DNA from: Streptomyces lydicus
Lineage (GTDB): Bacteria > Actinomycetota > Actinomycetes > Streptomycetales > Streptomycetaceae
Reading direction: 5' to 3'
Assembly: GCF_000717345.1 (NCBI RefSeq)
Contig: NZ_JNZA01000008.1
Coordinates: 124,001-188,000 of the forward strand
DNA length: 64,000 nucleotides
Under the pieces are notes generated by a model. That model was not told where the DNA came from. It saw only the letters and a program-made list of their open reading frames with translations, and ran no database searches. Both the position numbers and the translations under genes were made by a program. This document shows positions 18,834 to 52,828 of this stretch, in pieces (the stretch's first letter is position 1; every line of letters begins with the position of its first letter).

Positions 18834-19729
18834 ATGCGTATCGGAGTCCTCACCGCAGGCGGCGACTGCCCCGGCCTGAATGCTGTGATCCGGTCTGTCG
18901 TCCATCGCGCCCTCACCGGTCACGGCGACGAGATCATCGGCTTCGAGGACGGCTTCAAGGGCCTGCTGGAGGGCCGTTTCCGCAAGCTCGACCTGGAAGC
19001 TGTCAGCGGCATCCTCGCCCGCGGCGGCACCATCCTCGGCTCCTCCCGGCTGGAGCGCGCCCGGCTTCAGGAGGCGTGCGAGAACGCCAAGGACCACTCC
19101 AAGGACTACGGCATCGACGTGCTGATCCCGATCGGCGGCGAGGGCACCCTCACCGCCGCGCGGATGCTGTCGGACGCCGGGCTGCCGGTCGTCGGCGTCC
19201 CCAAGACCATCGACAACGACATCTCCTCGACCGACCGCACCTTCGGCTTCGACACCGCCGTCGGCGTGGCGACCGAGGCGATCGACCGCCTCAAGACCAC
19301 CGCGGAGTCGCACCAGCGCGTGATGGTCGTCGAGGTCATGGGCCGGCACGCGGGCTGGATCGCGCTGGAGTCCGGGATGGCCGGCGGCGCGCACGGCATC
19401 TGCCTGCCGGAGCGCGGCTTCGATGTGAACGACCTGGTCAAGATGGTCGAGGAGCGGTTCGCCCGGGGCAAGAAGTTCGCCGTGGTCTGTGTCGCCGAGG
19501 GCGCCCACCCGGCTCCCGGCACCATGGACTACAAGAAGGGCGCCATCGACCAGTACGGCCACGAGCGGTTCTCCGGCATCGGCAACGCGCTCGCCCACGA
19601 ACTGGAGCAGCGCCTCGGCAAGGAGGCCCGCCCGGTCATCCTCGGCCACGTCCAGCGCGGCGGCACCCCCACCGCCTACGACCGGGTGCTCGCCACCCGC
19701 TTCGGCTGGCACCCGAGTCGGTCTTCTGA
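18834..19729 (+). pseudogene. pfkA: 6-phosphofructokinase with damaged 3' end
   Basis: Residues 1-293 are a clean actinobacterial PfkA: GVLTAGGDCPGLNAVIRS at the N-terminus, PIGGEGTLTAAR, PKTIDNDI with the catalytic Asp, the substrate loop MGRHAGWIALESG, and GHVQRGGTPTAYDRVLATRFGWH. Family members run to about 341 residues. Here, right after GWH (codon ending 19712), the DNA jumps to the usual gene ending, Glu-Ser-Val-Phe-stop, but in another frame (stop 19727-19729). About 43 codons are missing, and the deletion is 3n+1 bases. In the original frame, reading runs on as Arg/Pro-rich nonsense to 20036, through the terminator and into the opposite gene. Product activity is doubtful. A real deletion or an assembly error are both possible. 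Confidence 0.8.
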
Positions 19730-19753
19730 CACCCGCCCCTCCCGCGAGCAACG

Positions 19754-19794
19754 ACGGCGGCGGGCCTCCCCCCAGGGGGAAGGCCCGCCGCCGT
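19754..19794. terminator. Bidirectional terminator between pfkA and the ABC permease gene
   Basis: ACGGCGGCGGGCCT (19754-19767) pairs perfectly with AGGCCCGCCGCCGT (19781-19794). It lies between convergent genes ending at 19729 and 19810. Confidence 0.8.
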
Positions 19795-19809
19795 CGCCGT
19801 GTGCTCCGG

Positions 19810-22377
19810 TCACTGGGCGCCGATGGCCTCCAGCATGTTCAGGCGGGCCGCCCGGCGGGCCGGCCAGGCGGCGGCGAGGACACCGACGACCAGGGCGATC
19901 GCGAGGAAGATGCCGAGCCGGTCCCACGGCAGGAGCATCTCGTACGTCGGCAGCGAGGTGGCCGTCATCTTGCCGCCGGCCCAGGCCAGGAAGATGCCCA
20001 CGCCGATGCCGAGCACCGCGCCGAACAGCGAGATGACCACCGATTCCAGGCGCACCATCTGCTTGATGCCGGTGCGGGCCAGCCCGATCGCGCGCAGCAT
20101 CCCGATCTCACGGGTGCGTTCGAAGACCGACATGGCCAGGGTGTTGACCACACCGACCACCGCGATGATCACGGCCATGCCGAGCAGTCCGTACATCATG
20201 TTCAGGACGGTGTCGATCTGGCCCGCGTTCTCCTTGCGCAGGTCGTCCTTGTCCTGCACCTTCAGCAGCGGGCTGTCGCCGAGCGCCTTGCGGATCTCCT
20301 TCTCCAGCCCGTCGCTGGTCCCGTTCGCGGTCTTGACCAGGACCTTCTCGTCCTTGAGGGGCTTGATCACATACGGGTCGACGAGCGCGGTGGCGCCGAA
20401 CATGTCGCCGACGGTGGCGTTGTCCTCGTAGACGCCGGCGACCGTGATCCGGGCCTTCTCCTTCTTCTCGGTGCCGGTGAAGAAGCCGACCTCGTGGGTC
20501 TCGCCGGTCTTCCAGCCCAGCTTCTCGGCCTTGGAGCGGGAGACCGCGATGCCGCCGTCGTGCACCGCCGCCAGCGATCCGCTGCGGAAGGTGAGGTCGG
20601 CGACCTTGCCGATGCCGGCCAGGTCGGTGCCGGTGAGCGAGCCGTAGCCGCCGTCGGTCTCGAAGGCGGCCGAGCGGAGGGGCACCGCCGCCGAGACGCC
20701 GGGCAGGTGCGCGGCCTTCTTCGTCAGCTCGGGGTCCAGGCCGCGGAAGTTGGCCGTGCTGACCTGGTAGTCGGCGGTCAGGCCCTGGGCGGACATCTCG
20801 TCCGAGGCCCGCTGCGCCGACAGGCCGGCGACCGTCATGCCGGTGATCAGGGTGAGGCCGATCATCAGGGCGGAGGCGGTGGCGGCGGTCCGGCGCGGGT
20901 TGCGCAGCGCGTTCTCCTTGGCCAGCTTGCCGCTGATGCCGAAGAGCCGGGTGGTGACCTTGCCGGCCAGGCTGACCAGCGGTCGCGACAGCAGCGGAGC
21001 GAGGATGATGACGCCGGTCAGGGTCAGCGCGGAGCCCGCCATGGCGGTCATCAGGCCGCTCTCCTCGGCGGTCTTGAGGGTGGAGACATACAGCATGATC
21101 GCGACGCCGAGGGCGGTGACCACCGCGCCGATGGTGTTGCGCAGGACCAGGCCGCGCAGCGCGGGCGCCGCGTCCACCGTGTTCAGTGCCTCGACCGGGG
21201 CGATCTTCGCGGCCTTGCGGGACGGCAGCCAGGCGGACAGCACGGTCACCAGCACACCGACGGCAAGGGCGGACAGCACGGCGGCCGGCGTGATCACCAG
21301 CGGGCCGTCGGGGAAGCCCGCGCCGTTGGCGTCGAGCACCGCGCGCATGGTGACCGCGATGGCGGTGCCCAGCGCGAACCCGACGACGGAGGAGACCAGG
21401 CCCAGCAGGCCCGCCTCGGCCAGCACCGAGCGCACCACCTGGCGGCGGGAGGCGCCGATCGCCCGCATCAGGGCGATCTCACGGCTGCGCTGCGAGATCA
21501 GCATGGTGAAGGTGTTGGCGATGATGAAGATGCCGACGAACAGGGCGATGCCGGCGAACACCAGCAGCGTCTTGCTCAGCGCCTGGTTGCTCATCTCGAC
21601 CATCTTGGCCTGCTCGGCGGCGAGCTTGCTGCCGCTGGTCGCCGTCGCGCGGTCCTTCGGCAGCAGCTTCTCGACCGCGGCGGTCAGCGCCTTCTCGTCG
21701 GTGCCGGGCTTGGCGGTCACCACCAGTTCGTCGTACTGGCCGGGGTGCACGAACAGCTTCTGGGCGGTGGCGGTGTCGAACAGCGCCAGGCTGCCGCCCG
21801 CGGTGACCTGCGGGTCCTCGGAGTGGACGATGCCGACGAGCGTCTTGTGCAGGGCCGGTCCGTCGGTGGCGAAGCGTACGCTGTCACCGACCTTCAGGCC
21901 GGCCTTCGCGGCCGCGCCCTCGTCCAGCACGATCTCGCCGGCCGAGGCCGGGCCGCGGCCCCGGACGAGCGGGTAACGGCTGTCCTTGCCGCCCGCGCCC
22001 GGCTGGTAGTTGGTGGCCACGTTCTGCCAGTCGTTGCCGATCGGCTGGTTGTCCTTGTCGGCGATGGTGGCCCTTCCGCTGACATTGGCGTGGACAGCGG
22101 CCACGCCGGGCAGCGCGCGGACCCGGTCCGCCAGCTTGTCGTTGAGGGCGGTGGTGCGGTGGCCGTTCTCTTCCTGGGGCGGCCCGTCGGACGTCGCCTG
22201 CACGGAGACGGCCACGTCCCGGAAGCTCTTGGCCGAGGCTTTCTTGACGGCCTCGCCCACGGTGTCGCTGAAGACGAGGGTGCCGGAGACGAAGGCGACG
22301 CCGAGGAGGACCGCGAGAGCGGTCATCATCAGACGGGCTTTGTGCGCGAGGACGTTGCGCAGCGCGGTACGGAACAT
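19810..22377 (-). CDS. ABC transporter permease, FtsX/MacB type
   Basis: An 855-residue membrane protein with the duplicated FtsX layout: one N-terminal helix (residues 15-37), a large extracytoplasmic domain of about 200 residues, three helices near residues 255-380, a fourth bridging region, a second extracytoplasmic domain, then three C-terminal helices. The repeated ISQRSREIALMRAIGASRRQV and ERTREIGMLRAIGLARTGI are the coupling elements of the two halves. Such permeases drive mechanical export or peptide resistance rather than solute flux. The ATPase gene lies 39 bp upstream on the same strand. A possible annotation is antimicrobial peptide exporter; the substrate is unknown. Confidence 0.9.
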   Translation of the reverse strand: MFRTALRNVLAHKARLMMTALAVLLGVAFVSGTLVFSDTVGEAVKKASAKSFRDVAVSVQATSDGPPQEENGHRTTALNDKLADRVRALPGVAAVHANVSGRATIADKDNQPIGNDWQNVATNYQPGAGGKDSRYPLVRGRGPASAGEIVLDEGAAAKAGLKVGDSVRFATDGPALHKTLVGIVHSEDPQVTAGGSLALFDTATAQKLFVHPGQYDELVVTAKPGTDEKALTAAVEKLLPKDRATATSGSKLAAEQAKMVEMSNQALSKTLLVFAGIALFVGIFIIANTFTMLISQRSREIALMRAIGASRRQVVRSVLAEAGLLGLVSSVVGFALGTAIAVTMRAVLDANGAGFPDGPLVITPAAVLSALAVGVLVTVLSAWLPSRKAAKIAPVEALNTVDAAPALRGLVLRNTIGAVVTALGVAIMLYVSTLKTAEESGLMTAMAGSALTLTGVIILAPLLSRPLVSLAGKVTTRLFGISGKLAKENALRNPRRTAATASALMIGLTLITGMTVAGLSAQRASDEMSAQGLTADYQVSTANFRGLDPELTKKAAHLPGVSAAVPLRSAAFETDGGYGSLTGTDLAGIGKVADLTFRSGSLAAVHDGGIAVSRSKAEKLGWKTGETHEVGFFTGTEKKEKARITVAGVYEDNATVGDMFGATALVDPYVIKPLKDEKVLVKTANGTSDGLEKEIRKALGDSPLLKVQDKDDLRKENAGQIDTVLNMMYGLLGMAVIIAVVGVVNTLAMSVFERTREIGMLRAIGLARTGIKQMVRLESVVISLFGAVLGIGVGIFLAWAGGKMTATSLPTYEMLLPWDRLGIFLAIALVVGVLAAAWPARRAARLNMLEAIGAQ

Positions 22378-32207: not shown

Positions 32208-34586
32208 TCAGGCCGGCCGCAGCCAGATCGTGGCCAGCGGGGGGAGCACTGCCGTGATGGAGGTGGCGCGGCCGTTCCACGGGGTGGCCTCGGTCTTGAG
32301 GAGGTCGGGGTTGGCGACGCCGCCACCGCCGTAGCGTGCCTCGTCGGTGTTGAGCACCTCCCGCCAGGCGGCGACGCCGTCGGGCACGCCGATCCGGTAG
32401 GCGTGCCGTACCACCGGGGAGAAGTTGGTGACCGAGAGCAGCGGGGAGCCGTCGGCCGCGAAGCGCAGGAAGGAGAAGACGTTGTCCTCGCTCGCGTCGC
32501 CGTCGATCCAGCGGAACCCGGCCGGATCGGTGTCGCGCTCCCACAGGGCGGGGGTGGCGAGGTAGTGGCGGTTGAGGTCGCGGACGAGATCCCGTACACC
32601 GCGGTGGTCCGGCTCCGCGTCGTAGGACGGGTCGAGCAGCCACCAGTCCGGGCCGTGGCTCTCCGCCCACTCCGCGCCCTGGGCGAACTCCTGCCCCATG
32701 AAGAGGAGTTGCTTGCCCGGGTGGGCCCACATGAAGCCGAGGTAGGCCCGGTGGTTGGCGCGCTGCTGCCACCAGTCGCCGGGCATCTTCGACACCAGCG
32801 CGCCCTTGCCGTGCACCACCTCGTCGTGGGAGATCGGCAGCACGTAGTTCTCGGAGTAGGCGTAGATCATCGAGAAGGTCATCTCGCCGTGGTGGTACTT
32901 GCGGTGCACCGGCTCCTTGGAAACGTAGCCGAGCGAGTCGTGCATCCAGCCCATGTTCCACTTCAGCCCGAAGCCCAGCCCGCCGAAGCCGCCCGGCCCG
33001 ACGTGGTGCGTGGCGCGGGTGACGCCGTCCCAGGCCGTGGACTCCTCGGCGATGGTCACCACGCCCGGGCAGCGCCGGTAGACCGTCGCGTTCATCTCCT
33101 GCAGGAAGGCCACCGCGTCGAGGTTCTCCCGCCCGCCGTGGACGTTCGGCGTCCAGCCGCCGTCCTCGCGCGAGTAGTCGAGGTAGAGCATCGAGGCGAC
33201 GGCGTCCACCCGCAGCCCGTCGATGTGGAACTCCTCGCACCAGTACACGGCGTTGGCGACCAGGAAGTTGCGGACCTCGGTGCGGCCGTAGTCGAACTCC
33301 AGGGTCCCCCAGTCCGGGTGCGCGGCCCGTGCCGGGTCCTGCGGCTCGTACAGCGGACGGCCGTCGAACTCCGCCAGCGCCCAGTCGTCGCGCGGGAAGT
33401 GCGCCGGCACCCAGTCCATCAGCACCCCGATGCCGGCCCGGTGCAGCGCGTCGATCAGGAACTTGAAGTCGTCCGGCGTGCCCATCCTGGCGGTGGGTGC
33501 GTAGAACCCGGTGACCTGATAGCCCCACGAACCGCCGAAGGGGTGCTCGGCGACCGGCATGAACTCGACGTGGGTGAAGCCCAGGTCCTTGACGTAGGCC
33601 GGGAGCTGGGCGGCGAGCTGGCGGTAGGTGAGGCCGGGGCGCCAGGACGCCAGGTGCACCTCGTACACCGAGAACGGCGCCTCGTGCACCGGCCGCTCAC
33701 CGCGCCGGGCCAGCCAGTCGGCGTCCTTCCAGCGGTAGTGCGACTCGTGCACGACCGAGGCGTTGGCGGGCGGGCACTCGGTCCGCCGGGCCATCGGGTC
33801 GGCGCGCACCGTCCTCGACCCGTCCGGCCGGGTGATCTCGAACTTGTACAGCTCGCCCTCGCCGATGCCGGGCAGGAACAGCTCCCAGACCCCGGAGGAA
33901 CCCAGCGACCGCATCGGGTGCGCGGTGCCGTCCCAGTAGTTGAAGGCGCCGACGACCCGGACGCCCTGCGCGTTGGGCGCCCACACCGTGAAGCGGGTGC
34001 CGGTCACGCCCTGGTGCTCCATCGTCCGGGCCCCGAGCGCCTGCCACAGCTGCTCGTGCCGCCCCTCGGCGAACAGGTGCAGGTCCAGCTCGCCGAGCGC
34101 GGGCAGGAAGCGGTAGGGGTCGCGTACGGTCACCGGCCCGTCGCCGTAGTCGACCAGCAGCTCGTACTCCGGGACGGTGCGCAGCGGCAGCACCCCGGCG
34201 AACAGCCCGTCACCCTCCGGCAGCAGCCCGGCGCGCAGGCCCTTGCCGACGACGGTCACGGTTCGGGCGTACGGCCGCAGCACCCGGATCAGCAGCCCGC
34301 CGCGCACGGGGTGCGCGCCGAGCAGCCCGTGCGGGTCGTGGTGCGCACCGCCGAGCAGCCGGCCGCGGTCCTCGTCGGACAGCGGGGCGGCGGCGCGCAC
34401 CCCGCGGGTACCGGCCGCCGTCCCCGCGCCGGGGGCCGGGGCCGCGGCGGACGACGGGTTCGTGGTGGTGGCCTCCCGGGCGGTGGGCGGTGCGGTGTCG
34501 GAACGGGTGGCGGGCGGTGCGGTGTCGGAACCGGTGGCAGGCGGTGCGGTGTCGGAACGGGTGGCGGGTGACGGGCGGGCGGTCAC
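32208..34586 (-). CDS. glgB: 1,4-alpha-glucan branching enzyme
   Basis: A 792-residue GH13 enzyme that makes alpha-1,6 branches in alpha-glucan. Residues about 70-300 hold two N-terminal CBM48-type domains, including [24 protein letters not shown]. The barrel carries [12 protein letters not shown], the nucleophile Asp in [19 protein letters not shown], the acid Glu in [10 protein letters not shown] and [11 protein letters not shown]. The first 60 residues are unusual: three near-identical 9-residue units (SDTAPPATR type) and an Ala/Pro linker. GAGGAGG precedes the GTG start. It lies 73 bp after maltokinase on the same strand and completes the GlgE pathway. Confidence 0.96.
34483..34566. repeat. 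27-bp tandem repeat inside the 5' end of glgB
   Basis: About three copies of a 27-bp unit (GGCGGTGCGGTGTCGGAACG plus seven bases on the plus strand) encode three copies of an Ala-Thr-Arg/Gly-Ser-Asp-Thr-Ala-Pro-Pro unit. Copy number keeps the frame and may vary between strains. Confidence 0.7.
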
Positions 34587-34659
34587 GACGGGGCCTCCTC
34601 GGCGGGGTCCTCTGCGGCGGTTGGTCGGTGGCGGTGCTGCGGCGGCTGGTCCCGTCCGC

Positions 34660-36168
34660 TCACCCCCGGCCGTCGGAGCCGGGGGAGCGCGCCGGGCCGG
34701 ACCCGTCCACGCCCACGGCCGGTACCCCGCCCGCCGCCAGCCGGCGGATGGCGGCCATCGGGACGGCCAGCCAGTCGGGCCGGTGCCGGGCCTCGTAGAG
34801 CACCTCGTAGACGGCCTTGTCGGTCTCGTAGGCGCGCATCAGTTCGGGCGCGGAGCGCGGATCGAGCCCGCCGGCCTCGGCGTATCCCAGGCAGAAGGCG
34901 TCGCGGGTGCGCCGCGCCCACTCCAGTGCCCAGGGGTCCCCGCCCGCGGGCCCGCTGCGCGCGGCGTAGTCGAAGGAGCGCAGCATCGCCGCGACATCCC
35001 GCACCGCCGGCTGCGGCCGCCGCCGCTCGGCCAGCGGGCGGGCCGGTTCGCCCTCGAAGTCGATCAGCGACCAGCGTCCCTCGTCGGCGGTGCGCAGCGT
35101 CTGCCCCAGGTGCAGATCACCGTGGATGCGCTGGGCGGCCCAGCTGCGGCCGTCGTGGCCCACCGCGGCAAGCTCGTCGAAGGCGGTGCGCAGCCGCGCG
35201 CGGTAGGGCTGGAGCACGGGCACCGCGCGGGCGGTGGCCTCCAGCCGCTCGTGCATCTGAGCGGCGATCACGTCCAGCTGGGGACGGCGCAGCTCGGTGG
35301 TCGGCAGCGTCTGGGCGAGCGCGGTGTGCACCTCGGCGGTGGCGTGCCCGAGGGCCCGCGCCGAGCCGGTGAAGTCGGCGCGCACCGCCAGCGCGTTGAG
35401 CGCCAGCTGCCAGCCGTCCGCCGAACCCGCCAGGAACGGCTGGAGCACGCCCAGCGTCGTCGCCTCGCCGCTCTCGTCGGCGGTCGCCGCCTCGAACCAC
35501 GCGGCGGGCGCCGGCACCCGCGCGCACTTGGCGTCCGCCAGCGCCCGCGGCAGCTCCAGATCCGGGTTGACGCCCGGTTCGATCCGCCGGAAGACCTTCA
35601 GGATGAACGAATCTCCATAGACGATCGAGGAGTTGGACTGCTCGACGGCGATCGGCCGGGCCGGCAGCCCGGAGGGGATGTCCACGTCCGCCTCGCGGCA
35701 GAAGCGCAGGCCCCCGAGCCGTCCCGGGACCCGGAGCCGTTCCAGCAGCAGCCCGCACAGCCGGTTGTCCAGCAGCGCGTCGTAGACCGTACGGCCGCTC
35801 AGCGGACCGCCGCCCGGACGGCCGATCACCGCCGGTGCCAGCTGCGGCGACGGCGCCGGATGCACCCCCAGCAGGAGCTGGTAGCAGTCCCCGCCGGCCG
35901 GCGTACGGCTCGGTGGGGCGCTCTGCTGCGCCCGCACCAGCAGCTGGAGCAGGCCCGGAGCGGTGCCGTCGCCGGTGCAGGGCAGCAGCTCGGTGGCCGA
36001 GAGCAGCGTGAAGCCGGTGAGCAGCCGGCCCTTGCCGGCGAACCAGCGCTGTCGTGGCACCCATTCGGCGAGCAGGGGCACCAGCGAGGACAGCAGATCG
36101 GGTGCGGTGACGAGCGGTCGGCGGTCAGGGCTGTTTCGGGTGGCACGGGTCGGGGCGGTGTCCGACAT
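34660..36168 (-). CDS. mak: Maltokinase
   Basis: A 502-residue kinase that phosphorylates maltose from TreS to maltose-1-phosphate, the donor for GlgE. The N-terminal region [20 protein letters not shown] is typical. The kinase-like active site has [13 protein letters not shown] (catalytic Asp) and [12 protein letters not shown] (Mg2+-binding Asp). ATG 36168 is chosen over GTG 36195 because an AAAGGAC element lies just upstream. It is 323 bp after treS and separated from it by a strong terminator, so maltokinase and glgB form their own transcription unit. It is often called pep2 in Streptomyces. Confidence 0.93.
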
Positions 36169-36491
36169 GGCGTCGCGTCCTTTCCCCGGGCACACGACAG
36201 GTAGGGCAAAGTGTCCCGGAATGCGGCCTTCACTGTGCGGTGGCGCGGTGGCAGTACCCCCGTACGGAGGCGGTGCGGGTCCCCCCGGAGGGCATGGCCT
36301 CGGGAGTGTCCGCGGCGTGCGCTTCCGCCGCGTGGCGGTCCTCTCCGGAGCCGGGGGACCGACGATGGCTCACCCGGCCCGTGCGGTACTAGGGAGACTG
36401 CCCGAGCGAAAGGTCAAAAAACGCCCGTACGCGCCACGGGGCCGCGTACGGGCGGTGTGCAGGGCGCCCGTGCCCGGTCAGGGCACCGGCG
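36169..36491. other. 323-bp region between treS and maltokinase
   Basis: It contains the terminator of the glgE-treS unit (36415-36454) and must contain the promoter for maltokinase-glgB, which I cannot place with confidence. Open frames in it lack coding character. Confidence 0.5.
36415..36454 (-). terminator. Rho-independent terminator after treS
   Basis: On the minus strand CGCCCGTACGCG (36454-36443) pairs with CGCGTACGGGCG (36433-36422), followed by a run of six T. A true T run is rare in this GC-rich sequence and makes this the best terminator in the window. Confidence 0.85.
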
Positions 36492-38239
<1,748 letters not shown>

Positions 38240-38243
<4 letters not shown>

Positions 38244-40243
38244 TTGGGTGACCCTCCGATCGGTGAGGACGGTCGCAGCGACAGCACATGGGCGGGCGCG
38301 AGGGAGCTGCCCGGCTCCAGGCGCACATAGTTGTCCCTGCCCCAGTGGTAGGTATCGCCGGTGAGCTCGTCGCGCACCGGGAAGGACTCGTGCCGGCCGA
38401 GGCCGAGTTCCGGCATGTCCAACGACACCGTCGCCTCGTGGGTGTGGTGCGGGTCGAGGTTGACCACCGTGAGCACCGTGTCGGCCCCCTCGCCGTGTCC
38501 CGCCCGCTTGGAGAAGGCGAGCACCGCGTCGTTGTCGACAGGGTGGAAATGCAGATTGCGCAGCTGCTGCAGGGCAGGGTGCCGGCGCCGGATGCGGTTG
38601 AGGGCGGTGATCAGGGGGGCGAGGGTGCGTCCCTCCTTCGCCGCCGCATCCCAGTCGCGCGGCCTGAGTTGGTACTTCTCCGAGTCGAGGTACTCCTCGC
38701 TGCCGGGGCGCAGCGGCGTCGACTCGCAGAGCTCGTAGCCGGCGTAGACGCCCCAGGTGGGGGAGAGGGTGGCGGCCAGCACGGCACGGATCTCGAAGGC
38801 CGGCCGGCCGCCCTCCTGGAGGTAGGCGTGCAGGATGTCCGGGGTGTTCACGAAGAAGTTGGGCCGCAGGTAGGAGGCCGACTCGCCGGACAGCTCGGTG
38901 AGGTAGTCGGTCAGTTCCTGCTTGGTGTTGCGCCAGGTGAAGTACGTGTACGACTGCTGGAAGCCGATCTGGGCGAGGGTGTGCAGCATGGCCGGTCGGG
39001 TGAACGCCTCGGCGAGGAAGAGCACGTCGGGATCGGTGCGGTTGATGTCGCCGAGCACCTTCTCCCAGAAGGCCACCGGTTTGGTGTGCGGATTGTCCAC
39101 CCGGAAGATCCGTACGCCCTTGGCCATCCAGAACCGCAGCACCCGCTCGGTCTCGCGGACCAGCCCGCGGAAGTCGCCGTCGAAGGCGATGGGGTAGATG
39201 TCCTGGTACTTCTTCGGCGGGTTCTCGGCGTAGGCGATCGAGCCGTCCGCGCGGTGGTGGAACCACTCCGGGTGCAGGGTGACCCAGGGGTGGTCGGGCG
39301 AACACTGCAGCGCGAAGTCCAGGGCCACCTCCATCCGCAGGTCGCGGGCGGTACGCACGAAGTGCTCGAAGTCCTCGAAGGTGCCCAGGTCGGGGTGGAG
39401 GGCGTCGTGGCCGCCGGCCGCCGAACCGATCGCCCAGGGGGAGCCGACGTCGTCCGGCCCGGCCGACAGGGCGTTGTTGGGGCCCTTGCGGAAGGCGGTG
39501 CCGATGGGGTGGACGGGCGGCAGGTAGACCACGTCGAAGCCCATCGCGGCGACGGCCGGCAGCCGCTCGGCGGCGGTGCGCAGGGTCCCGCTGACGGCGG
39601 TGCCCCGTGCGGTGACGACGGCGCCCTCGGAGCGTGGGAAGAGTTCGTACCACGAGCCGAACAGGGCCCGGCGGCGCTCGACGACCAGCGGCATGGGGCG
39701 CGAGACGGTCAGCAGCTCACGCAGCGGATGGCGGGCGAGGGCCTCGATGACCTGCGGGGAGAGCGCCGCGGCGAGCCGGGTGGCGGCGGGCAGCTTCGGA
39801 TCGCGCAGCGCGTCCAGGGCGGCCAGCACCGACTCCCGGCCGTCGCTCTTGGGGACGTCGGCGGCGGCCCGCTCGTGCAGCGCGGCGCCCTCGGCGAGCA
39901 CCAGCTCGGTGTCGATGCCCGCCGGGATCTTGACCGAGGCGTGCTTGCGCCAGGTCGCGAGCGGGTCGGACCACGCCTCGACGGTGAAGGTCCAGCGGCC
40001 CTCGACGTCCGGGGTGACGTCGCAGCTCCACCGGTCGGTGCCGGGCGCCCGCTCCTGCATCGGCGTCCACGGACCGCAGCGGCCGGCGGGATTGCGCAGC
40101 ACCACATTGGCCGCGACCGCGTCATGGCCTTCGCGGAAGACGGTGGCCGAGACCTCGAAGGTCTCGCCCACCACGGCCTTCGCCGGGCGGCGGCCGCAAT
40201 CGATCTGCGGGCGGATGTCCAGAACAGGGATGCGACCGATCAT
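38240..40243 (-). CDS. glgE: Alpha-1,4-glucan:maltose-1-phosphate maltosyltransferase
   Basis: A 667-residue GH13_3 enzyme that extends alpha-1,4-glucan with maltosyl units from maltose-1-phosphate. The N-terminal domain (about residues 10-110) is beta-rich ([20 protein letters not shown]). The barrel has the nucleophile Asp in [18 protein letters not shown], the acid Glu in [14 protein letters not shown], and [14 protein letters not shown]. The unique substrate loop [20 protein letters not shown] is characteristic. It starts at ATG 40243 behind AGGTGAG and heads the glgE-treS unit. A glgP gene usually found beyond it in relatives is not present here. Confidence 0.95.
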
Positions 40244-40912
40244 CAGCTCACCTGGTTTGTGATGCTTTGCTGGGTTTTGTCCTTTGTATCCGCTTTACGG
40301 CAGGGGGAGCGGGTGCGGGGAGGGGCGCTCCAGTCCGCTTTCACCCGGCTGGCGGATGACACGGCCGGCCGGGGTCTCCCTGCTGAGCCTTCCCTGGGGT
40401 CGTGCCCCGAAAATCCGGCGGAATGTGAACTACTGGTACGTAACCTCGGGTCCGCCGTGACCCGTCCGACATACGTCCGCCTTTGTGCGGGCGGCCGCGG
40501 AGCTGCGCTGACACGGTCGGCTTTCGCCTCCTCAACTCGTTGTGATCACAGCGGAGTTGCGGTGTGCGGAGGTCCGGTGCCGCGCCGGGGCCCGTCGGCG
40601 CACCCCGAGCCTCTCTCCAGGAGGAGGTCCGTACAAGAGCGCCTGAGGGGGTGGAATCGGCCATATCGGGAAACGCGGCGGTAGGAAAGGCTCCGGATGT
40701 CGTCCGGCCGGTGAACTCCCCTGGTCAGCAGGTGAGTTGGGAGTGAACCCGCGGGGCGGGGCGGGCGCGGAGGGGCGGCGGCGTACGGGTGACGGGACGG
40801 CCCGGAAGCACCCCGCGGGGCACGCCTGGGGGGTGTCTCCCCGATCTCCGTGGGCCTGCGACGCTCCCCCAGCTACCGCTGGGAGGTGCCCCCAGGCACC
40901 GCACTCCCCCAG
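40244..40912. other. 669-bp intergenic region
   Basis: It must contain the glgE promoter near 40250-40330, which I cannot define. The far end holds two short hairpin repeats (40864-40922). Open frames in it have poor codon bias. In S. coelicolor I recall glgP near this position; nothing like it remains here. Confidence 0.5.
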
Positions 40913-40922
40913 CTAACGCTGG
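40864..40922. repeat. Tandem short hairpin repeats
   Basis: CTCCCCCAGCTACCGCTGGG (40864-40883) and a second copy CTCCCCCAGCTAACGCTGG (40904-40922) flank another hairpin, GGTGCC-CCCA-GGCACC (40885-40900). Each copy folds as CCCAGC-N4-GCTGGG. The second copy overlaps the last codons of the kinase gene ending at 40913. Related sequences are scattered in Streptomyces genomes, as I recall. Confidence 0.65.
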
Positions 40923-42391
40923 TACACGCAGGACCGGCCGGGCGGGGGCGGCGGGGTGCCGTCCGGAGGGGCGTCCAGGGCGAGGAACGGCAGGACGGCC
41001 TCCACCCGGGAGCGTGCATCGCCCGGCCGCAGCCGGTCGTAGCTCTGCCGCTCCAGGACCGTCCAGGACGGGGTGAGCAGATGGAAGAGGCCCATCAGCA
41101 CGACCAGGGCCGCCAGCAGCGCGAACGGGACGGCCAGCGTCTGCCGGAGCCGGCGCCGCACCTGCTGCCGGGCGTGCGCCAACTCCCGTCCGGTGGCGGT
41201 GGTTTCCGGGCCGCGGAGCGGGGCGGGCGGTGTGCCGCCGGAGGCCGGCAGCCGGGCCGAGACCGTGAAACCGCCGTCCGGAGCGGGCCCCGCCCGCAGC
41301 GCGCCGCCCGCCAGCCGTACCCGCTCGTCCAGCCCCACCAGGCCGCTGCCGCCGGAGACCGGTGCCGGGGCCGGCCCGGCCGGCCGCGCGGGGTGGGTCA
41401 CGGTCACCGCCAGCTCCTCGGCCTCCCGGGTGATCCGCACCCGTACGTCCGCGCCCGGGGCGTGCTTGGCGGCGTTGGTCAGCGACTCCTGCACCACCCG
41501 GTGCAGGGCGTGCCCGGTCATGGCCGGAAGTCCGTCCCCCGCGGCGTCGTCCGGCTGCTCCAGCGTCACCGTCATCCCCGAGGCGCGCGCCCGCTCCACC
41601 AGTCGCGGGACGCTCTCGCCGGGCGGCAGCCGGGGCGCGCCCTCGTCGTCCGTGCGCAGTACGCCGATGATCTCCGCGAGCCGCTCGGTCGCCGACCCGG
41701 CCGCCGCGCGCAGTTCACCGGCCGCCGCCCGGCGTTCCGCGGACAGCTCGGGGGCGAGCTCCAGCGCCCCGGCCCGCAGGGCGATCAGGGCCAGGTCGTG
41801 CCCGAGGGAGTCGTGCATGTCGCCGGCGATCCGGGTGCGCTCGCGCAGCCGGGTGCGTTCGGCGACGGCCCGCGCCTCGCGCTCCATCCGCGCGGCGAGC
41901 TGCCAGCCGGTGCGGACCAGTTCGGCGTACTGGCGGCGGTAGCGGCCCAGCAGCCACGGCAGCACCACGTTGAGCAGCAGGGTCAGCAGGAAGGAGAACC
42001 ACGGCCACACCGTCCGTCCGACGACCGCGGTCAGCGGCAGCGCGCCGGCCGCGAGACCTGCGAAGCACCACAAGGCGGGACGGGCGCGCGGCATCCGGAC
42101 GCCCGCCAGACAGCCGAAGACGGCCAGCGCGGGGGAGTACGCGACGGTGAACAGGTCCAGGGTGATCGCCAGGCTGGGTACGACCGGCAGCGTCAGCGCC
42201 ACCAGCGGCCACCGGCCGCGCACCAGCACGGCCACGGCGAGCAGCGGGAACGCGGCCGCGGTCGCCGCCACGGGCGAGCCGGGCACGGCCTCCAGCGCGA
42301 GGACCGGCGCACCGCACAGCGCCAGCCACAGACCGAGACCGGCGAGGGCGGCGCGCAGCCGCCGCCGGTCCGGGGGTATCCGGGGCGTCAC
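40913..42391 (-). CDS. NarL-partner sensor histidine kinase with extra C-terminal membrane segment
   Basis: A 492-residue kinase. Four to five N-terminal helices (residues about 10-165) serve as sensor. The HisKA_3 box is RTRIAGDMHDSLGHDLALIALRAG with the phospho-accepting His. The ATPase domain has VVQESLTNAAKHAPGA and GSGLVGLDERVRLAGG. After the ATPase domain there is an unusual addition: a helix (LAVPFALLAALVVLMGLFHL) and an outside tail of about 55 residues with YDRLRPGDARSRVEAVLP and one Cys near the end. The GTG start overlaps the regulator stop by GTGA. It lies beside secreted proteases. The signal is unknown. Confidence 0.88.
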   Translation of the reverse strand: MTPRIPPDRRRLRAALAGLGLWLALCGAPVLALEAVPGSPVAATAAAFPLLAVAVLVRGRWPLVALTLPVVPSLAITLDLFTVAYSPALAVFGCLAGVRMPRARPALWCFAGLAAGALPLTAVVGRTVWPWFSFLLTLLLNVVLPWLLGRYRRQYAELVRTGWQLAARMEREARAVAERTRLRERTRIAGDMHDSLGHDLALIALRAGALELAPELSAERRAAAGELRAAAGSATERLAEIIGVLRTDDEGAPRLPPGESVPRLVERARASGMTVTLEQPDDAAGDGLPAMTGHALHRVVQESLTNAAKHAPGADVRVRITREAEELAVTVTHPARPAGPAPAPVSGGSGLVGLDERVRLAGGALRAGPAPDGGFTVSARLPASGGTPPAPLRGPETTATGRELAHARQQVRRRLRQTLAVPFALLAALVVLMGLFHLLTPSWTVLERQSYDRLRPGDARSRVEAVLPFLALDAPPDGTPPPPPGRSCVYQR

Positions 42392-43053
42392 GACGCGGGG
42401 ACCAGGCCCGCCTCGTACGCGAGGATCGCCGCCTGGACGCGGTTGCGGACCCCGAGGCCGGCGAGGATCGCGCTGACATAGCCCTTGACGGTGCCCTCGA
42501 CGAGGAACAGCCGCCGGGCGATCTCCGCGTTCGACAGTCCGGCGCCGACCAGCCCGAGCACCTCCCGCTCGCGCCCGGTCAGTCCGGCGACCCGGGCGCG
42601 GGCGGCCGCGCCGCGGGTCAACTGCCCGTCGCCCAGGTGGGCCAGGACGCGCCGGGCGACGGTCGGGGAGAGGCAGGCGCCGCCCTCGGCGACCGCCCGT
42701 ACGCCGGCGATCAGCTCCCGGGGATCGCCGGACTTCAGCAGGAAGCCGGCGGCGCCGGAGCTCAGCGCGTCGGCGATGTACGCGTCCTCGGAGAACGTCG
42801 TCAGCATGATCACGGCGGTCCCCGGCGCCACCCTGGCCAGCTCGGCGGCGGCGCCGAGGCCGTCCAGGCGCGGCATGCGGATGTCCAGCAGGCAGACGTC
42901 GGGCCGGTGACGCAGCGCCAGGTCGACCGCCTCGCGGCCGTCGGCGGCCTCCGCGACGACCTCGATGCCGGGCCCGGCGGTGAGGACCGCCCGCACCCCT
43001 GCCCGCAGCAGCGTCTCGTCGTCGGCCAGCAGCACCGTGACGGTCCGGCTCAT
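42388..43053 (-). CDS. NarL/LuxR-family response regulator
   Basis: A 221-residue regulator. The receiver domain has VLLADDETLLRAGVR, the phosphorylated Asp in VCLLDIRMPRLDG, the switch Thr in IMLTTFSEDAYI and GFLLKSGDP. The C-terminal LuxR helix-turn-helix reads LTGREREVLGLVGAGLSNAEI and VEGTVKGYVSAILAGLGVRNR. It is the first gene of a two-gene operon with the kinase. The two M4 protease genes lie upstream on the same strand, ending 113 bp before it, so they may be in its regulon. Confidence 0.93.
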   Translation of the reverse strand: MSRTVTVLLADDETLLRAGVRAVLTAGPGIEVVAEAADGREAVDLALRHRPDVCLLDIRMPRLDGLGAAAELARVAPGTAVIMLTTFSEDAYIADALSSGAAGFLLKSGDPRELIAGVRAVAEGGACLSPTVARRVLAHLGDGQLTRGAAARARVAGLTGREREVLGLVGAGLSNAEIARRLFLVEGTVKGYVSAILAGLGVRNRVQAAILAYEAGLVPAS

Positions 43054-43166
43054 CGTTCCCCCTGATCACCCCGTGACGTGCGAAGGCGGTGTCCGGAGAT
43101 CTCCGGACACCGCCCGCTCCGGGGTCACGTTACCCCGGGACGATCAGCACGTTCCCGCTCGTTGCG

Positions 43167-44801
43167 TCACTTGACGGCGACACCGGTCCAAGCGGCCTCG
43201 ACGCCCTTGACCTCGGCGCTGTCCTTGCCGTACAGGTCGGTGGCGGCCTTGACGGTCGCCTCGCGCGCGGCCTTGTAGTCCGTGTTCGAGGTCATGTACT
43301 CGGTCAGGGCCTTGAACCAGATCTTCTCGGCCTTGTCCCGGCCGATGCCGGTGACCTTGGAGCCGTCCGCCGTCGGGCTGTCGTACTTGACGCCGTTGAT
43401 CTCCTTCGCGCCGCTGCCCTCGGACAGCAGGTAGAAGAAGTGGTTGGCGACGCCCGAGGAGTAGTGCGGGTCGAGGTTGCCCGTGTTGGAGTCCCAGTTG
43501 TCCTTCGACTGGCCGTCCTTGCTGGGCTTGTCCATGTAGCGCAGCGGCGAGCCGTCACCGTTGATGTCGATCTTCTCGCCGATGAGGTAGTCGCCCGGGT
43601 CCTTGTCGTTCTTGGCGTAGAACTCGACCGAGGTCCCGAAGATGTCCGAGGTGCCCTCGTTGAGGCCGCCGGACTCACCGCTGTAGGTGAGGTTGGCGGT
43701 GGCGGAGGTGACACCGTGCGACATCTCGTGCGCGGCGACGTCCAGCGCGGTGAGCGGCTTCTTGTTGCCCTCGCCGTCGCCGTACGTCATGCAGAAGCAG
43801 CTGTCGTCCCAGAACGCGTTGACGTAGCTGTTGCCGTAGTGCACGCGGGACGAGGCGCCCTTGCCGTCGCCCTTGATGCCGCTGCGGCCCTGCACGTTCT
43901 TGTAGTAGTCCCAGGTCTCGGCCGCACCGTAGTGCGCGTCGACGGCCGCGGTCTGCGGGTCGTCGGGCTTGCCGGTGCCCCAGGCGTCGTCGTCGTCGGT
44001 GAACGCCTTGCCGTCACCGGACTCGCTGTTGCCCAGGTTGGTGGTCTTGTGGCCACCGCGCCCGGCGTCGGTCAGCGTGAAGCCGCTGCCCTCCTTGGAG
44101 GTGCCCAGCTCGACGCTGCCGCTGTACTCGCTCTCGCCCTTGCCGGTGTGGATCTCGTCGTACTGGAAGAGCTTCTTGCCGGTGTTGGCGTCGGTGATGA
44201 CGTGCATCCGGCTGGGGGTGCCGTCCTTCTGCGTGCCCTTGACGACGGTGTCGTAGGCGAGGACGGGGGTGCCGGAGGCGGCCCAGACGACCTTCTTGGG
44301 CGCCTGCGCGTCGGCCTGCTTCGCGGCGAGCGACTTCGCCGCGGTGCCCTGCGCGGACTTCGCGGCGGCCTGCGGGGCGATCTTCGCCGTGGTGGACGCG
44401 ACCTTGACGGACTTGTCGGTCGACTTGGTGGTGGACTTGATCGCGCCGCCCTTGGCGGTGTGCACGACCAGGTCGCCGCCCAGCACCGGCAGGCCGGCGT
44501 AGGTGCGGTCGTAGCGGGTGTGCGTGGTGCCGTCGGCGTCCTTGATGACGTCCTTGACGACCAGCTTCTCCTGCGAGCTGAGGCCGAGCGCCTTGGCGGT
44601 CTGCGCGCGGGCGGCGCCCGCGTCACGCAGCAGTTCCGCCCGGTGCGAGGCGCTGAGCCGGAGCGGAGTGCCGTCCGTCTTCGTGGGGGTGGGGGCCGGC
44701 GAGGCGCCGGCGGTACCGGCCGTGATACCGGCGGCCAGCAGGGCCGCGGCCGCGAGGGCGGTACCGGTCACACGGGTCTTACGGGATATGCGGGGGGTCA
44801 C
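43167..44801 (-). CDS. Secreted M4 family metalloprotease (thermolysin type)
   Basis: A 544-residue preproenzyme. A signal peptide (about residues 1-33) is followed by an FTP/PepSY propeptide (about 45-215: LVVKDVIKDADGTTHTRYDR, GLPVLGGDLVVHT). The catalytic domain has the zinc motif HEMSH at residues 358-362, with the third ligand Glu382 in GESGGLNEGTSD, and a C-terminal helical domain with VANHFFYLLSEGSG and the catalytic His region. GTG 44801 follows AAGGAGC; the frame is open further upstream but lacks a signal. It degrades proteins outside the cell. It is a tandem paralogue of the next gene without its C-terminal extension. Confidence 0.93.
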   Translation of the reverse strand: MTPRISRKTRVTGTALAAAALLAAGITAGTAGASPAPTPTKTDGTPLRLSASHRAELLRDAGAARAQTAKALGLSSQEKLVVKDVIKDADGTTHTRYDRTYAGLPVLGGDLVVHTAKGGAIKSTTKSTDKSVKVASTTAKIAPQAAAKSAQGTAAKSLAAKQADAQAPKKVVWAASGTPVLAYDTVVKGTQKDGTPSRMHVITDANTGKKLFQYDEIHTGKGESEYSGSVELGTSKEGSGFTLTDAGRGGHKTTNLGNSESGDGKAFTDDDDAWGTGKPDDPQTAAVDAHYGAAETWDYYKNVQGRSGIKGDGKGASSRVHYGNSYVNAFWDDSCFCMTYGDGEGNKKPLTALDVAAHEMSHGVTSATANLTYSGESGGLNEGTSDIFGTSVEFYAKNDKDPGDYLIGEKIDINGDGSPLRYMDKPSKDGQSKDNWDSNTGNLDPHYSSGVANHFFYLLSEGSGAKEINGVKYDSPTADGSKVTGIGRDKAEKIWFKALTEYMTSNTDYKAAREATVKAATDLYGKDSAEVKGVEAAWTGVAVK

Positions 44802-45088
44802 GCGTGCTCCTTCAACTTTGCCAAGTGGTGGGGGTGCAAAGCGATGCGGGTGTGACGTGCGACCGGAACACTGCCATTCGAACGCGTGCATGTCAGGAGT
44901 CTGTTCACAACTTGGCTGATTTTCGTTCGTAGAGAGGTGCGCGCTGTTCGCATAACGGAGTTGGACGCCGTTCCCGGATTTTCGGGAACGACGCCCAACT
45001 TCCTTGCTGCACGGGCCAGTTGTGATCACCTGTGGGGTGCCGGCCCGTCTATGTCACACCAAGGTGACGGCCGGGTGCGGCCACCTGG

Positions 45089-47365
45089 TCAGAACGTCAG
45101 CTTCCAGCCGTTGATGTAGCCGCTGTCCTGGGAGTAGACGTCCTGGACCCGCAGCTTCCAGGTACCGCTCGCCGCCTCCGAGGAGGCGTTGACGGTGTAC
45201 GTCGTGTTCACGTTGGCCGCGGAGTCGTACGCGTTGGAGTTCTTCAGCCGGTAGGCCGTGCCGTCCGGGGCGATCAGGTCGATGACCAGGTCACCGCGGT
45301 AGCTGTGCACGATGTCGACCCCGACCTTCAGCGTGCTCGGCGCGTTGCCGCTGCGGCTGACGGTGATCGGCGAGGTGACCGCCGCGCCGGCGTCCGGGAT
45401 CTGCACGTCGTCGGCGTTCTCGAAGACATTGCCCCCGCCGACCGGGTTGACCGTCCAGGTGAAGGCGGCCGTACCGGTCTTCTTCGCCGAGTCGGTGACC
45501 GTCACCGTGACGTTGCTGGTGCCGGCCGTGGTCGGCGTACCGGAGATCAGACCGGTGCTCGCGTTGATCGACAGCCCGGCGGGCAGGCCGGTCGCCGCGT
45601 AGCTCAGCGCGCCCGCGGTGCCGCTGGTCGCCTTGATCTGCAGGCTCGCCGCCTGGCCCACGGTGCTGGTCTGGTTGCCCGGGTTGGTGACGGTGACGCC
45701 GCCGTCCGGGACGCGGGAGCCGACGTTGACCGCCGCCCAGGTGTTGGCGACCGTGTTGTACGACGCGCTGCCCTGGCCGAACAGGTCGGCCGCGGCCTTC
45801 AGCGTCGCGGTACGGGCGGCCGCGTAGTTGGTGTTCGCGCTCATGTACTGGCTGAGCGCCTTGAACCACACCTTCTCGGCGTTGGCCCGGCCGATGCCCG
45901 GCACCGGCAGGTTGTCGAAGGTCGGGCTGTCGTAGTGGACGCCGCCGATGTCCTTCGGGCCGCTGCCCTCGGACAGCAGGTAGAAGAAGTGGTTGGCGAC
46001 GCCGGACGAGTAGTGGACGTCCTTGTTGCCGACGGTGCTGGACCAGTAGTCGGCGGACGCGCCGTCCTTGCTCGGCTTGTCCATGTAGCGCAGCGGGGTG
46101 CCGTCGCCGTTGATGTTGATCTTCTCGCCGATGAGGTAGTCACCGGGGTCGGACGCGTTGTTGGCGTAGAACTCCACCGCCGTGCCGAAGATGTCGGAGG
46201 TCGCCTCGTTGAGGCCGCCGGACTCCCCGCTGTACTCCAGGCCCGCGGTGTTGGAGGTGACACCGTGCGACATCTCGTGGCCGGCCACGTCGAGGGAGGT
46301 CAGCGGGTCGGCGTTGCCGCTGCCGTCGCCGTACGTCATGCAGAAGCAGCCGTCGTCCCAGAAGGCGTTGACGTAGCTGTTGCCGTAGTGCACGCGGGAG
46401 TAGGCGCCGACGCCGTCGCCCTTGATGCCGCTGCGGCCGTGCACGTTCTTGTAGTAGTCCCAGGTCTCCTGGGCGCCGTAGGCGGCGTCCACACCGGCCG
46501 TCTGGGCGTTCTGCGGCGTACCGTCGCCCCAGGTGTCGTCGGCGTCGGTGAACAGCGAACCGGTGCCCGACGAGCCGTGGTTGAGGTTGTAGGTCTTGTG
46601 GCCGCCGCGGGTGGCGTCGGTCATCGAGAAGTTCGGGGCGGAGCCCGAGGTCCCGATGGTGACCTTGCCGCTGTACTCGCTGTTGCCGATGCCGGTCTCG
46701 ATGCCCTGGTACTGGAAGATCTTGGCACCGGTGACGGCGTCGGTGATGACGTGCAGCTGGTTGGGGGTGCCGTCGTCCTGCAGCCCGCCGACCACCGTCT
46801 CGTAGGCGAGGACCGGCTTGCCGTCGGCGACCCAGACCACCTTGCGCGGCGCCTTGGCCGCCTCGGTCTTCTTCGAGCCCAGCGCCCGCGCGGAGGTGAC
46901 GGCCTTCGCCTCGGCGGCGGCCGGCTTGATCTTCGCGGTGGTGCTCGCGACCTTCAGCTGGGAGGCGACGGCCTTCGTGACGCCCTTGAGCTTGCCGGCC
47001 TTGGTCTCGTGCACCACGAGGTCGCCGCCGAGCACCGGCAGTCCTTCGTAGGTGCGCTCGTAGCGCGTGTGGACCGTGCCGTCGACATCCTTCGAGACGT
47101 CCTTGACGACCAGCTTCTCCTTCGCGCCGAGCTTCAGCTGCCGCGCGGTCTCGGCGGTGGTGGCACCGGCTGCCCGTATCAGCTCCGCACGCTGGGACGG
47201 GGACAGCTTCGCCGGCAGGGCGCCGGGATCGGGTACGGCATGCGTGGTGCCCGGCCGCGGGGCGGCCGCCGTTCCGGTGCCGGCCTGTACACCGACGGCC
47301 AGCATCGCCGTGACGGCGACCAGCGCGCCGGTCGCAACGGCGCGGGTATGGGGGGTGCGTCTCAC
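45089..47365 (-). CDS. Secreted M4 metalloprotease with Ig-like and P domains
   Basis: A 758-residue preproenzyme. Signal peptide about residues 1-34; FTP/PepSY propeptide about 50-225; M4 catalytic domain with HEMSH at 363-367 and Glu387 in GGLNEATSD; helical C-terminal M4 domain to about residue 550. It then adds a putative Ig fold (about 552-646: ATGLPAGLSINASTGLISGT) and a proprotein convertase P domain (about 647-758: SYRGDLVIDLIAPDGTAYRL, ASGTWKLRVQDVYSQDSGYI). The extra domains may aid folding or substrate binding. GAAGGAGT precedes the GTG start. The catalytic part closely resembles the adjacent 544-residue paralogue. Confidence 0.94.
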   Translation of the reverse strand: MRRTPHTRAVATGALVAVTAMLAVGVQAGTGTAAAPRPGTTHAVPDPGALPAKLSPSQRAELIRAAGATTAETARQLKLGAKEKLVVKDVSKDVDGTVHTRYERTYEGLPVLGGDLVVHETKAGKLKGVTKAVASQLKVASTTAKIKPAAAEAKAVTSARALGSKKTEAAKAPRKVVWVADGKPVLAYETVVGGLQDDGTPNQLHVITDAVTGAKIFQYQGIETGIGNSEYSGKVTIGTSGSAPNFSMTDATRGGHKTYNLNHGSSGTGSLFTDADDTWGDGTPQNAQTAGVDAAYGAQETWDYYKNVHGRSGIKGDGVGAYSRVHYGNSYVNAFWDDGCFCMTYGDGSGNADPLTSLDVAGHEMSHGVTSNTAGLEYSGESGGLNEATSDIFGTAVEFYANNASDPGDYLIGEKININGDGTPLRYMDKPSKDGASADYWSSTVGNKDVHYSSGVANHFFYLLSEGSGPKDIGGVHYDSPTFDNLPVPGIGRANAEKVWFKALSQYMSANTNYAAARTATLKAAADLFGQGSASYNTVANTWAAVNVGSRVPDGGVTVTNPGNQTSTVGQAASLQIKATSGTAGALSYAATGLPAGLSINASTGLISGTPTTAGTSNVTVTVTDSAKKTGTAAFTWTVNPVGGGNVFENADDVQIPDAGAAVTSPITVSRSGNAPSTLKVGVDIVHSYRGDLVIDLIAPDGTAYRLKNSNAYDSAANVNTTYTVNASSEAASGTWKLRVQDVYSQDSGYINGWKLTF

Positions 47366-47702
47366 ACTGACTCCTTCTGCGGTGGCCGCGACGTGACGGT
47401 GCGGCCGAGGGGGACCGGGCGGCGGAGCGGCCGTCCGGGCAGATCGAGGCAGAACTCATGGAGCGTGTGGGGGGAGACGTACGCGAGGTACTGGATGTGC
47501 TTGTGGAGCGGTTGGCGCAAAGGATGTTGATGGTGCGCGTGGAACCGGCTGCCGCGAGGTGTGGTGCTGTGGGGGCCAAGCGGCGGTTGCGGGGAAGAGT
47601 CCCACCACGCATGACCGGTTGTCAGGCTCCGTTCAACTTATTGGCCGGAAAACGTCCGTTGCGCGAAATCGGCGTCCGAAAACCGGACGGGTGGTAGGTA
47701 CC
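47366..47702. other. 337-bp intergenic region
   Basis: It should contain the promoter of the 758-residue protease near 47370-47460 and, at the other end, the end of the ABC transporter transcript with a hairpin at 47673-47689. A plus-strand open frame here has no ribosome binding site or family match and is not called. Confidence 0.45.
47673..47689 (-). terminator. Small hairpin after the ABC transporter operon
   Basis: CGTCCG (47673-47678) and CGGACG (47684-47689) pair around AAAAC, 14 bases past the stop of the upstream (minus-strand) gene. The stem is short, so confidence is low. Confidence 0.35.
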
Positions 47703-49544
47703 TCACGGCCGCGCCCTGCCGTGCCAGGACTCCCACAGGGCGGCGTAGGCGCCGTCCGCCGCCACCAGTTCGTCGTGGGTGCCCAGTTCGGCGATCCGGC
47801 CGTGCTCCATGACGGCGACCCGGTCCGCGTCGTGGGCGGTGTGCAGCCGGTGGGCGATGGCGATGACCGTACGGCCCCGGAGCACGGCGGCCAGCGCCCG
47901 CTCGGTGTGGCGCGCGGTACGCGGATCGAGCAGCGCGGTCGCCTCGTCCAGGATCACGGTGTGCGGGTCCGCCAGCACCACCCGCGCCAGGGCGAGTTGC
48001 TGGGACTGCGAGCCGTCCGGGCGGTGGCCGCCGGGGCCCAGCTCGGTGTCCAGGCCGGCCGGCAGCTCCGCGGCCCAGTCGGCCCCCACCGCGGCCAGCG
48101 CGGCCTCCAGGGCCGCGTCTCCGGCGTCCGGCGCGGCGATCCGCAGATTGTCGCGGACGGTGCCCAGGAACACGTGGTGCTCCTGGGTGACCAGGACGAC
48201 CTGCCGGCGCAGCACCTCGGGGTCCAGCTCCGCGAGCGGCACCCGCCCGGCCGTCACCGAGCCGCTGCGCGGCGCGTCGATGCCCGCCAGCAGCCGCCCG
48301 AGTGTGGACTTGCCGGCACCGGAGGGCCCGACCACGGCGATCCGCTCCCCGGGGCGGATGGTCAGATCCACCCCGCGCAGCACCTCGTGGCCGCCCCGGT
48401 CGTAGGCGTAACGCACCGCGCGGACGTCGATCCGGTCATCGGCGGGCAGCGGGCGCGCGGCAGGGGCCCGCGGGGGCCGCGGGGCCGCGCCCACACCCTC
48501 GACGCGGGCGAACGCGGCCCCGCTGGACTGCAGTTGCTCCACCCACAGCAGGATCGTCTCCAGCGGCTCGGACAGCTGACGCAGATACAGCGCCGCGGCG
48601 ACCACCACCCCCAGGCTGATCCCGCCCCGCCCGTGCAGCGCCCCGCCCACCAGCAGGACGCCGACCACCGGGAGGACGTACGAGACGTCCACCGCGGGCA
48701 GCAGCACACTGCGCAGGAACAGCGTGCGCAGCCGGGTGCGGCGGCAGTCCTCGACGGCCCGCTCGCCCGCCGCCCGCCGGCGCTCCTGGAGGCCCAGCGC
48801 CTCGACCGTCCTGGCGCCCTCCGCGGTGGCCGCGAGCAGCTCCGCCAGCGCCGATGTCGCGGCCCCCTCCGCGAGGTACGCGGTGTGCGCACGCCGCAGG
48901 TACCACCGGACCGCCAGCAGCCCGCTCAGCAGCCCCAGCCCGCACAGCCCGAGCAGCGGATCGAGCACCACCACCGCGCCGAGCAGGAACAGCGCCCGCG
49001 CCGCCGCGACGCACACCTCCGGTACGGCGTCCCGCAACGTCCGTGCGACGGAGGCGACGTCGGTGGTGCCGCGGGCGGTCAGATCGCCGCTGCCGGCCCG
49101 CTCCACGACCGCCGCGGGCAGCGCCAGCGCCCGGTCCAGGTACTGCTCGCGGACCCGCGCCGCGGTCCGCTCGCCGAAGCGGTGCCCGACGTACCGCGCG
49201 TACCGCGCCAGCAGCAGCTGGGCGAGCGCGCACACCACGATCGCGAGCGCCAGCCGGTCGACCGCGCGCACCCCGCCGCCCGCCCGGACCGCGTCCACGA
49301 TCCGGCCGAGCAGCCACGGGCCGGCCAGGCCGGCGCCGGCGGCGAGCGCGTTGAGCACGAGCATCAGGGTGAACGCCGTACGGTCCGGCCGGATCAGCCG
49401 GAGCGCCGCCTGCCGGGTCGCGGTGCGGGTGGCGACGGGCAGCCCGGCACCGTCCGGCAGGGCGTCCGCGGCGGACGGCCCGGGGGCCGTGCCGGGCGTC
49501 TCGGGTGGTGTGGTCGGCGGCGTGGTGGGTTCGGTTGCCGTCAT
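47703..49544 (-). CDS. ABC exporter half-transporter (ATPase-competent subunit)
   Basis: A 613-residue fused permease-ATPase. A Pro/Thr-rich tail of about 45 residues precedes a six-helix export domain (about 60-345). The ATPase domain has Walker A VVGPSGAGKSTLGRLLAG, Walker B TVILDEATALLDP and H loop IAIAHRLHTAHDADR. The signature is degenerate: GSQSQQLALAR where LSGGQ is expected. The ATG overlaps the upstream gene stop by ATGA. The partner upstream has the opposite defects, so together they make one working ATP site. The substrate is unknown. Confidence 0.9.
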   Translation of the reverse strand: MTATEPTTPPTTPPETPGTAPGPSAADALPDGAGLPVATRTATRQAALRLIRPDRTAFTLMLVLNALAAGAGLAGPWLLGRIVDAVRAGGGVRAVDRLALAIVVCALAQLLLARYARYVGHRFGERTAARVREQYLDRALALPAAVVERAGSGDLTARGTTDVASVARTLRDAVPEVCVAAARALFLLGAVVVLDPLLGLCGLGLLSGLLAVRWYLRRAHTAYLAEGAATSALAELLAATAEGARTVEALGLQERRRAAGERAVEDCRRTRLRTLFLRSVLLPAVDVSYVLPVVGVLLVGGALHGRGGISLGVVVAAALYLRQLSEPLETILLWVEQLQSSGAAFARVEGVGAAPRPPRAPAARPLPADDRIDVRAVRYAYDRGGHEVLRGVDLTIRPGERIAVVGPSGAGKSTLGRLLAGIDAPRSGSVTAGRVPLAELDPEVLRRQVVLVTQEHHVFLGTVRDNLRIAAPDAGDAALEAALAAVGADWAAELPAGLDTELGPGGHRPDGSQSQQLALARVVLADPHTVILDEATALLDPRTARHTERALAAVLRGRTVIAIAHRLHTAHDADRVAVMEHGRIAELGTHDELVAADGAYAALWESWHGRARP

Positions 49545-51370: not shown

Positions 51371-51568
51371 TGCCCTCCCCCGTTCGTCCTCGCCCCAGGA
51401 TCCGCGACTGCGTCAACCCTGGCTCATGCGGGGCGCTGAAGTCCGCGTCCAGTGAGCAGCGCCACAGCCGGGGGAGGGCCGGCCGGGGCGAGCCCGTGGG
51501 CGGGACGGCGCGGGCGCGCGGCCCTCGGCACGCCGTGGGGAGCGGAACGGCTGCCTGCGCGGCGGTGG

Positions 51569-52717: not shown

Positions 52718-52828
52718 GGCAGGTGACCTTTCGTCGTCAGGGCGTGGGCGGGTGGGGCCGGGGCCGGGGCACGCCGGGCCTGCCCGGCAGCGGCTCCGCT
52801 CGTGCACCGGCCGGTGCGCAACCGGCCG

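Follow-up and report, generated by a model that had tools for sequence, protein, structure and literature searches.

The broken pfkA2-type phosphofructokinase gene of a Streptomyces lydicus draft genome is very probably a repeat-collapse assembly artefact

The pfkA2-type 6-phosphofructokinase (PFK) gene in the analysed window, a 64,000-nucleotide stretch of contig C8 (C8:124001-188000) from a genome assembled in 131 contigs and 8.18 Mb, breaks off near its 3' end, and we attribute this break, with a probability of roughly 95%, to the collapse of a repeat during short-read assembly. The artefact is very probable because a similar second gene, of pfkA1 type, breaks at the same codon and because the tract shared by the two genes has the length of the assembler word. 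The break is real in the assembly file and very probably absent from the organism, and the living strain very probably lacks the deletion that the first-pass annotation ascribed to pfkA; it probably has whole pfkA1 and pfkA2 genes and three whole PFK genes in all. The labels pfkA1 and pfkA2 follow the S. coelicolor names and are tentatively assigned here from the gene neighbours.

As assembled, the pfkA2-type gene starts with an ATG at window position 18834 on the plus strand, and sequence and translation agree with the earlier description of a normal PFK frame through residue 293 (18834..19712), with His293 at 19710-19712. This part encodes an ATP-dependent PFK that matches profile PF00365 over positions 1-272 of 277 (348.6 bits, cut-off 30.9) and is 84-91% identical to its counterparts in 24 same-genus relatives. 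His293 is followed by CC and then, one frame off, by GAG TCG GTC TTC TGA (19715-19729), which upholds the previously described join at 19713 to an out-of-frame Glu-Ser-Val-Phe-stop but moves the start of that ending from 19716 to 19715. Judged by the relatives' endings, the plus-strand segment 19713..19729 comprises the final 17 bases of pfkA2. The gene spans 896 bases from ATG to stop, against 1026 in relatives, so that 130 bases (3 x 43 + 1) are absent, in keeping with the original estimate of about 43 codons and 3n+1 bases. Relatives' gene length, exact 99-base repeats and contig piece sizes place a probable false contig join, with ~130 gene bases absent, at 19712..19713. The gene thus shows 293 normal codons and a foreign tail in place of the ~341 codons of its relatives, and we judge the short reading frame to be an assembly artefact. 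The open frame stops at 20036, giving 400 aa with 107 foreign residues, as had been read from the translation; its portion beyond the true gene end (19730..20036, plus strand) is a spurious tail that overlaps a minus-strand ORF (19810-22377), confirming the antisense arrangement with the neighbouring gene, which from its appearance we presume to be an ABC-type permease. A putative G+C-rich hairpin can be discerned by eye 3' of the pfkA2 ending, at about 19757-19795.

Several simpler accounts of the break were discarded. A simple sequencing frameshift would not remove 130 bases, as opposed to one or two, and a mobile element or attachment site is contradicted by the lack of any insert, the flank consisting of the gene's own last 17 bases. 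Relocation of the pfkA2 tail was likewise rejected, since a tail query against the genome recovered the intact third PFK gene, with the other three matches at E values of 1.28 or worse.

The comparison with the same locus in relatives, which the first-pass annotation had proposed, shows pfkA2 to be intact in 24 of 24 same-genus relatives, with 341 codons and the ending ESVF. More broadly, codon counts are 339-344 in all 80 named PFK loci that were kept, a set at 59-89% identity that takes in paralogues and other genera. The closest named locus among these 80 is 89% identical, records of this genome or very near ones having possibly been excluded, and among the best 120 of 8000 proteins no near-identical strain with an intact pfkA2 was found, the best match being a 341 aa protein of Streptomyces sp. 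CT34 at 94% identity.

A profile search of the contigs identified three PF00365 genes in the genome: the window gene on C8, a copy on C23 with 74% protein identity to it, and a copy on C40 with 59%. The proposed count of pfkA genes accordingly returned two further copies, only one of which is intact: the C40 gene is whole, with 341 residues in frame from the start of the match, and the pfkA1-type gene on C23 is broken, running normally to ...VLATRFGWH and then into unrelated sequence, with the same break codon as the window gene. Alignment of pfkA1 and pfkA2 revealed 99 identical bases, gene bases 781-879, at C8:143614-143712 (window 19614..19712, plus strand) and C23:7109-7207. An exact-repeat comparison shows that both genes break at the last base of this tract, as repeat collapse would have it. 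In 90-base bins 5' of the tract the two genes are 68-87% identical, and their 3' flanks are unlike each other, consisting of the pfkA2 ending on C8 and the region ahead of a downstream gene on C23. The earlier suggestion of reliance on another pfkA copy is unneeded, given a pfkA1-type copy broken at the same codon and an intact third gene; the same-codon break points instead to a shared artefact.

To characterize exact repeats across the assembly, we listed all maximal exact repeats of at least 60 bases in a sample of 2.42 of the 8.18 Mb, comprising C8 and C23 in full, 20 kb from the start of each of C1-C60 and 20 kb from the end of each of C1-C40. The sample contains 11 repeats of exactly 99 bases, two of 100 and none longer than 100, while lengths 80-98 together account for 11 entries (one pair listed twice). 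With 0.58 repeats expected per length on the basis of lengths 80-98, the excess at 99 has a Poisson P of 4e-11. In de Bruijn assembly, contigs meeting at a repeat have one word in common, and seven of the 11 exact-99 repeats lie flush with a contig end; such repeats at contig ends are the mark of a 99-base assembly word. Four exact-99 pairs (the pfkA pair, those at C5 and C15, and C28/C46) are internal on both sides. A scripted scan found no N in the 2.42 Mb sample, and joins are therefore unmarked.

Taken together, these features suggest a sequence of events in which pfkA1 and pfkA2 of this Streptomyces match at their 3' ends, completely or almost completely, across more than 99 bases, so that a de Bruijn assembler with 99-base words would turn the shared pfkA stretch into a single repeat node. 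Each upstream contig would then reach 99 bases into the repeat and stop there, and a later step, whose joining mechanism we infer, would link upstream to downstream contig without restoring the repeat. The omitted stretch, presumably common to both genes, would leave pfkA1 and pfkA2 without their ends and out of frame. An alternative in which the 99-base repeat is real and correctly resolved, and the missing bases reflect separate coverage dropouts in G+C-rich DNA, draws some support from 3' flanks that are G+C-rich and foldable, even if the downstream flank of pfkA1 folds no better than shuffled sequences (z -0.34). It would require two independent dropouts at the same codon and at the edge of a repeat, however, and would not account for the strong over-representation of length 99 among exact repeats; we regard it as the least probable of the explanations considered.

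A parallel to the pfkA genes was found in another gene. The 99-mer that closes C23 is found again at C21:1474-1572, within a gene starting at position 1140 of C21 (locus L254, C21:1-3071) whose product resembles a secreted transglycosylase. This gene is normal to ...GLHRNIMR, at the end of the 99-mer (1572), and then gives way to unrelated sequence; contig C23 halts at the same place. Related copies on C36 of the same genome and in relative G004 continue to a ...NVNSAY stop (the comparison used loci L257, L258 and the broken L254, L250 ending at a contig end). The first 99 bases of C21 correspond to the ending of such a gene and occur once at full identity, the next best match, on C36, being 89% identical across 88 bases. 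Read in this way, one copy would have stayed open at the contig end, and the repeat would have been lost when the other copy was joined, as in the model for pfkA.

The observations on C21 also bear on the possibility that pfkA1 and pfkA2 truly lost their C-terminal ends, perhaps with gene conversion equalising the preceding parts, and that the intact third gene sustains glycolysis. The assembly does read so at both places, the sampled stretches are free of N, and a third PF00365 gene of normal length exists. The shared tract, however, has exactly the length seen at contig ends, the dissimilar right-hand flanks leave the second gene unexplained by a copied deletion, every same-genus relative (24 of 24) is intact, and the different gene on C21 shows the same loss at another 99-mer. 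We therefore consider true loss highly improbable, if marginally less so than paired dropouts, and favour assembly collapse.

Contig sizes offer a further line of evidence. Among the first 60 contigs (C1-C60), 17 are oversized for their place in the size order, as expected if joins followed contig sorting. If C23 is divided where pfkA1 breaks, the remaining piece of 116127 bases falls within the contig's slot of 113164-118901, and pieces from inferred joins in C22 (117461) and C13 (173907) also fit. C8 with a single join does not, its larger piece being 230083 bases against a slot of 196182-219310, and a second join was therefore sought in two intervals set by arithmetic, window 30483-53612 and C8 339.9-363.0 kb. 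Window 34000-53700 and C8 339000-348000 were searched against the whole genome and the remainder of the intervals against the 2.42 Mb sample. No near-identical match to C8 339000-348000 was found in the genome, and the window search identified a second exact 99-base tract at 40823..40921 (C8:164823-164921), common with C13:29007-29105. A cut there leaves 208874 bases, which fits the slot, and exact match and slot size together indicate that this tract is probably a second contig join. The same tract contains short palindrome-like repeats with matches on other contigs as well.

The probability of a slot fit by chance is 0.09 for C23 and C22 and 0.12 for C13 and C8, in tests that are post hoc. 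Because of this, and because the piece left by the inferred join in C21 itself measures 117329 or 117428 bases, a little short of the 117461 of C22 behind it, contig sizes amount to support for the joins and not to proof. Several points count against the join model: the second join in C8 was assumed before it was found, the C21 piece is slightly too small, the C22 tract measures 98 bases and not 99, and the C28/C46 exact-99 pair has no broken gene at the tract. Even so, the supposition in the first-pass annotation that the assembly had collapsed at this locus gains strong support from the exact-99 tracts, the C21 parallel and the contig sizes.

A further difficulty for the simple repeat model is that equal losses would be expected from the two genes, but pfkA1 seems to lose more than pfkA2. 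The estimates are 130 bases for pfkA2 and about 156-177 for pfkA1, the latter derived from the distance to the next start codon, which lies 93 bases from the join, against a stop-to-start distance of 102-123 bases in the seven of eight relatives where it was measurable. Either the 3' region of pfkA1 differs in this strain, or the loss there went beyond the repeat. Within eight relatives the longest identical stretch between pfkA1 and pfkA2 is 29-44 bases, as opposed to 99 here. We lean towards recent gene conversion as the source of 3' ends identical over at least 99 bases, with the C-terminal parts of the two genes being homogenised; the assembler, by removing bubbles, could have made the two ends look more alike than they are. 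If any biology survives the artefact, it may be this recent homogenisation of the pfkA1 and pfkA2 3' ends, on which the assembler tripped.

Streptomyces coelicolor has three PFK genes, pfkA1-3, and the present genome resembles it in carrying several PFK paralogues, but differs in that two of the three are truncated in this assembly. According to a statement in PMC5801464, citing Borodina et al. (2008), PfkA2 is the primary phosphofructokinase of S. coelicolor, and its loss here together with a second copy would therefore be remarkable. Recognizing the break as an artefact removes a false pseudogene: a description of the strain as deficient in two of its three phosphofructokinases would be unwarranted. 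Repeat-collapse misassembly in short-read draft genomes is a class mentioned in PMC5596377, and the present case resembles that class, as mentioned there, in that repeated regions are merged and the genes within them damaged or lost. Unlike the class as it is characterized in that mention, here the truncation hits two paralogous housekeeping genes at one and the same codon, and the word size of 99 is legible from the sequence. This suggests a test that needs no reads, whereby suspicion falls on paralogues that are truncated at one codon where an identical tract of word length ends. The same mark is borne by at least three further genes in the assembly (on C21, C5 and C15), and care is advised in their use.

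The sites on C5 (C5:241791-241992) and C15 (C15:12673-13117) are repeat genes in which, judging the frames by eye, frame shifts adjoin exact-99 repeats; we regard both as probable misjoins, in genes that look WD40-like (C5) and TIG-like (C15). In relative G009, an extra PFK-like match (C1:69020-69897, minus strand) consists of two overlapping pieces in different frames, and is perhaps a real pseudogene or an error. The lone protein of other than 341 residues among the best 120 of 8000 listed, P0048 of Streptomyces sp. NPDC048845, is a 304-residue pfkA2 product marked 'partial', encoded on a 15 kb contig and ending in the region of the present break; it may represent another contig broken at the pfkA2 3' region, and a similar tract there would fit.
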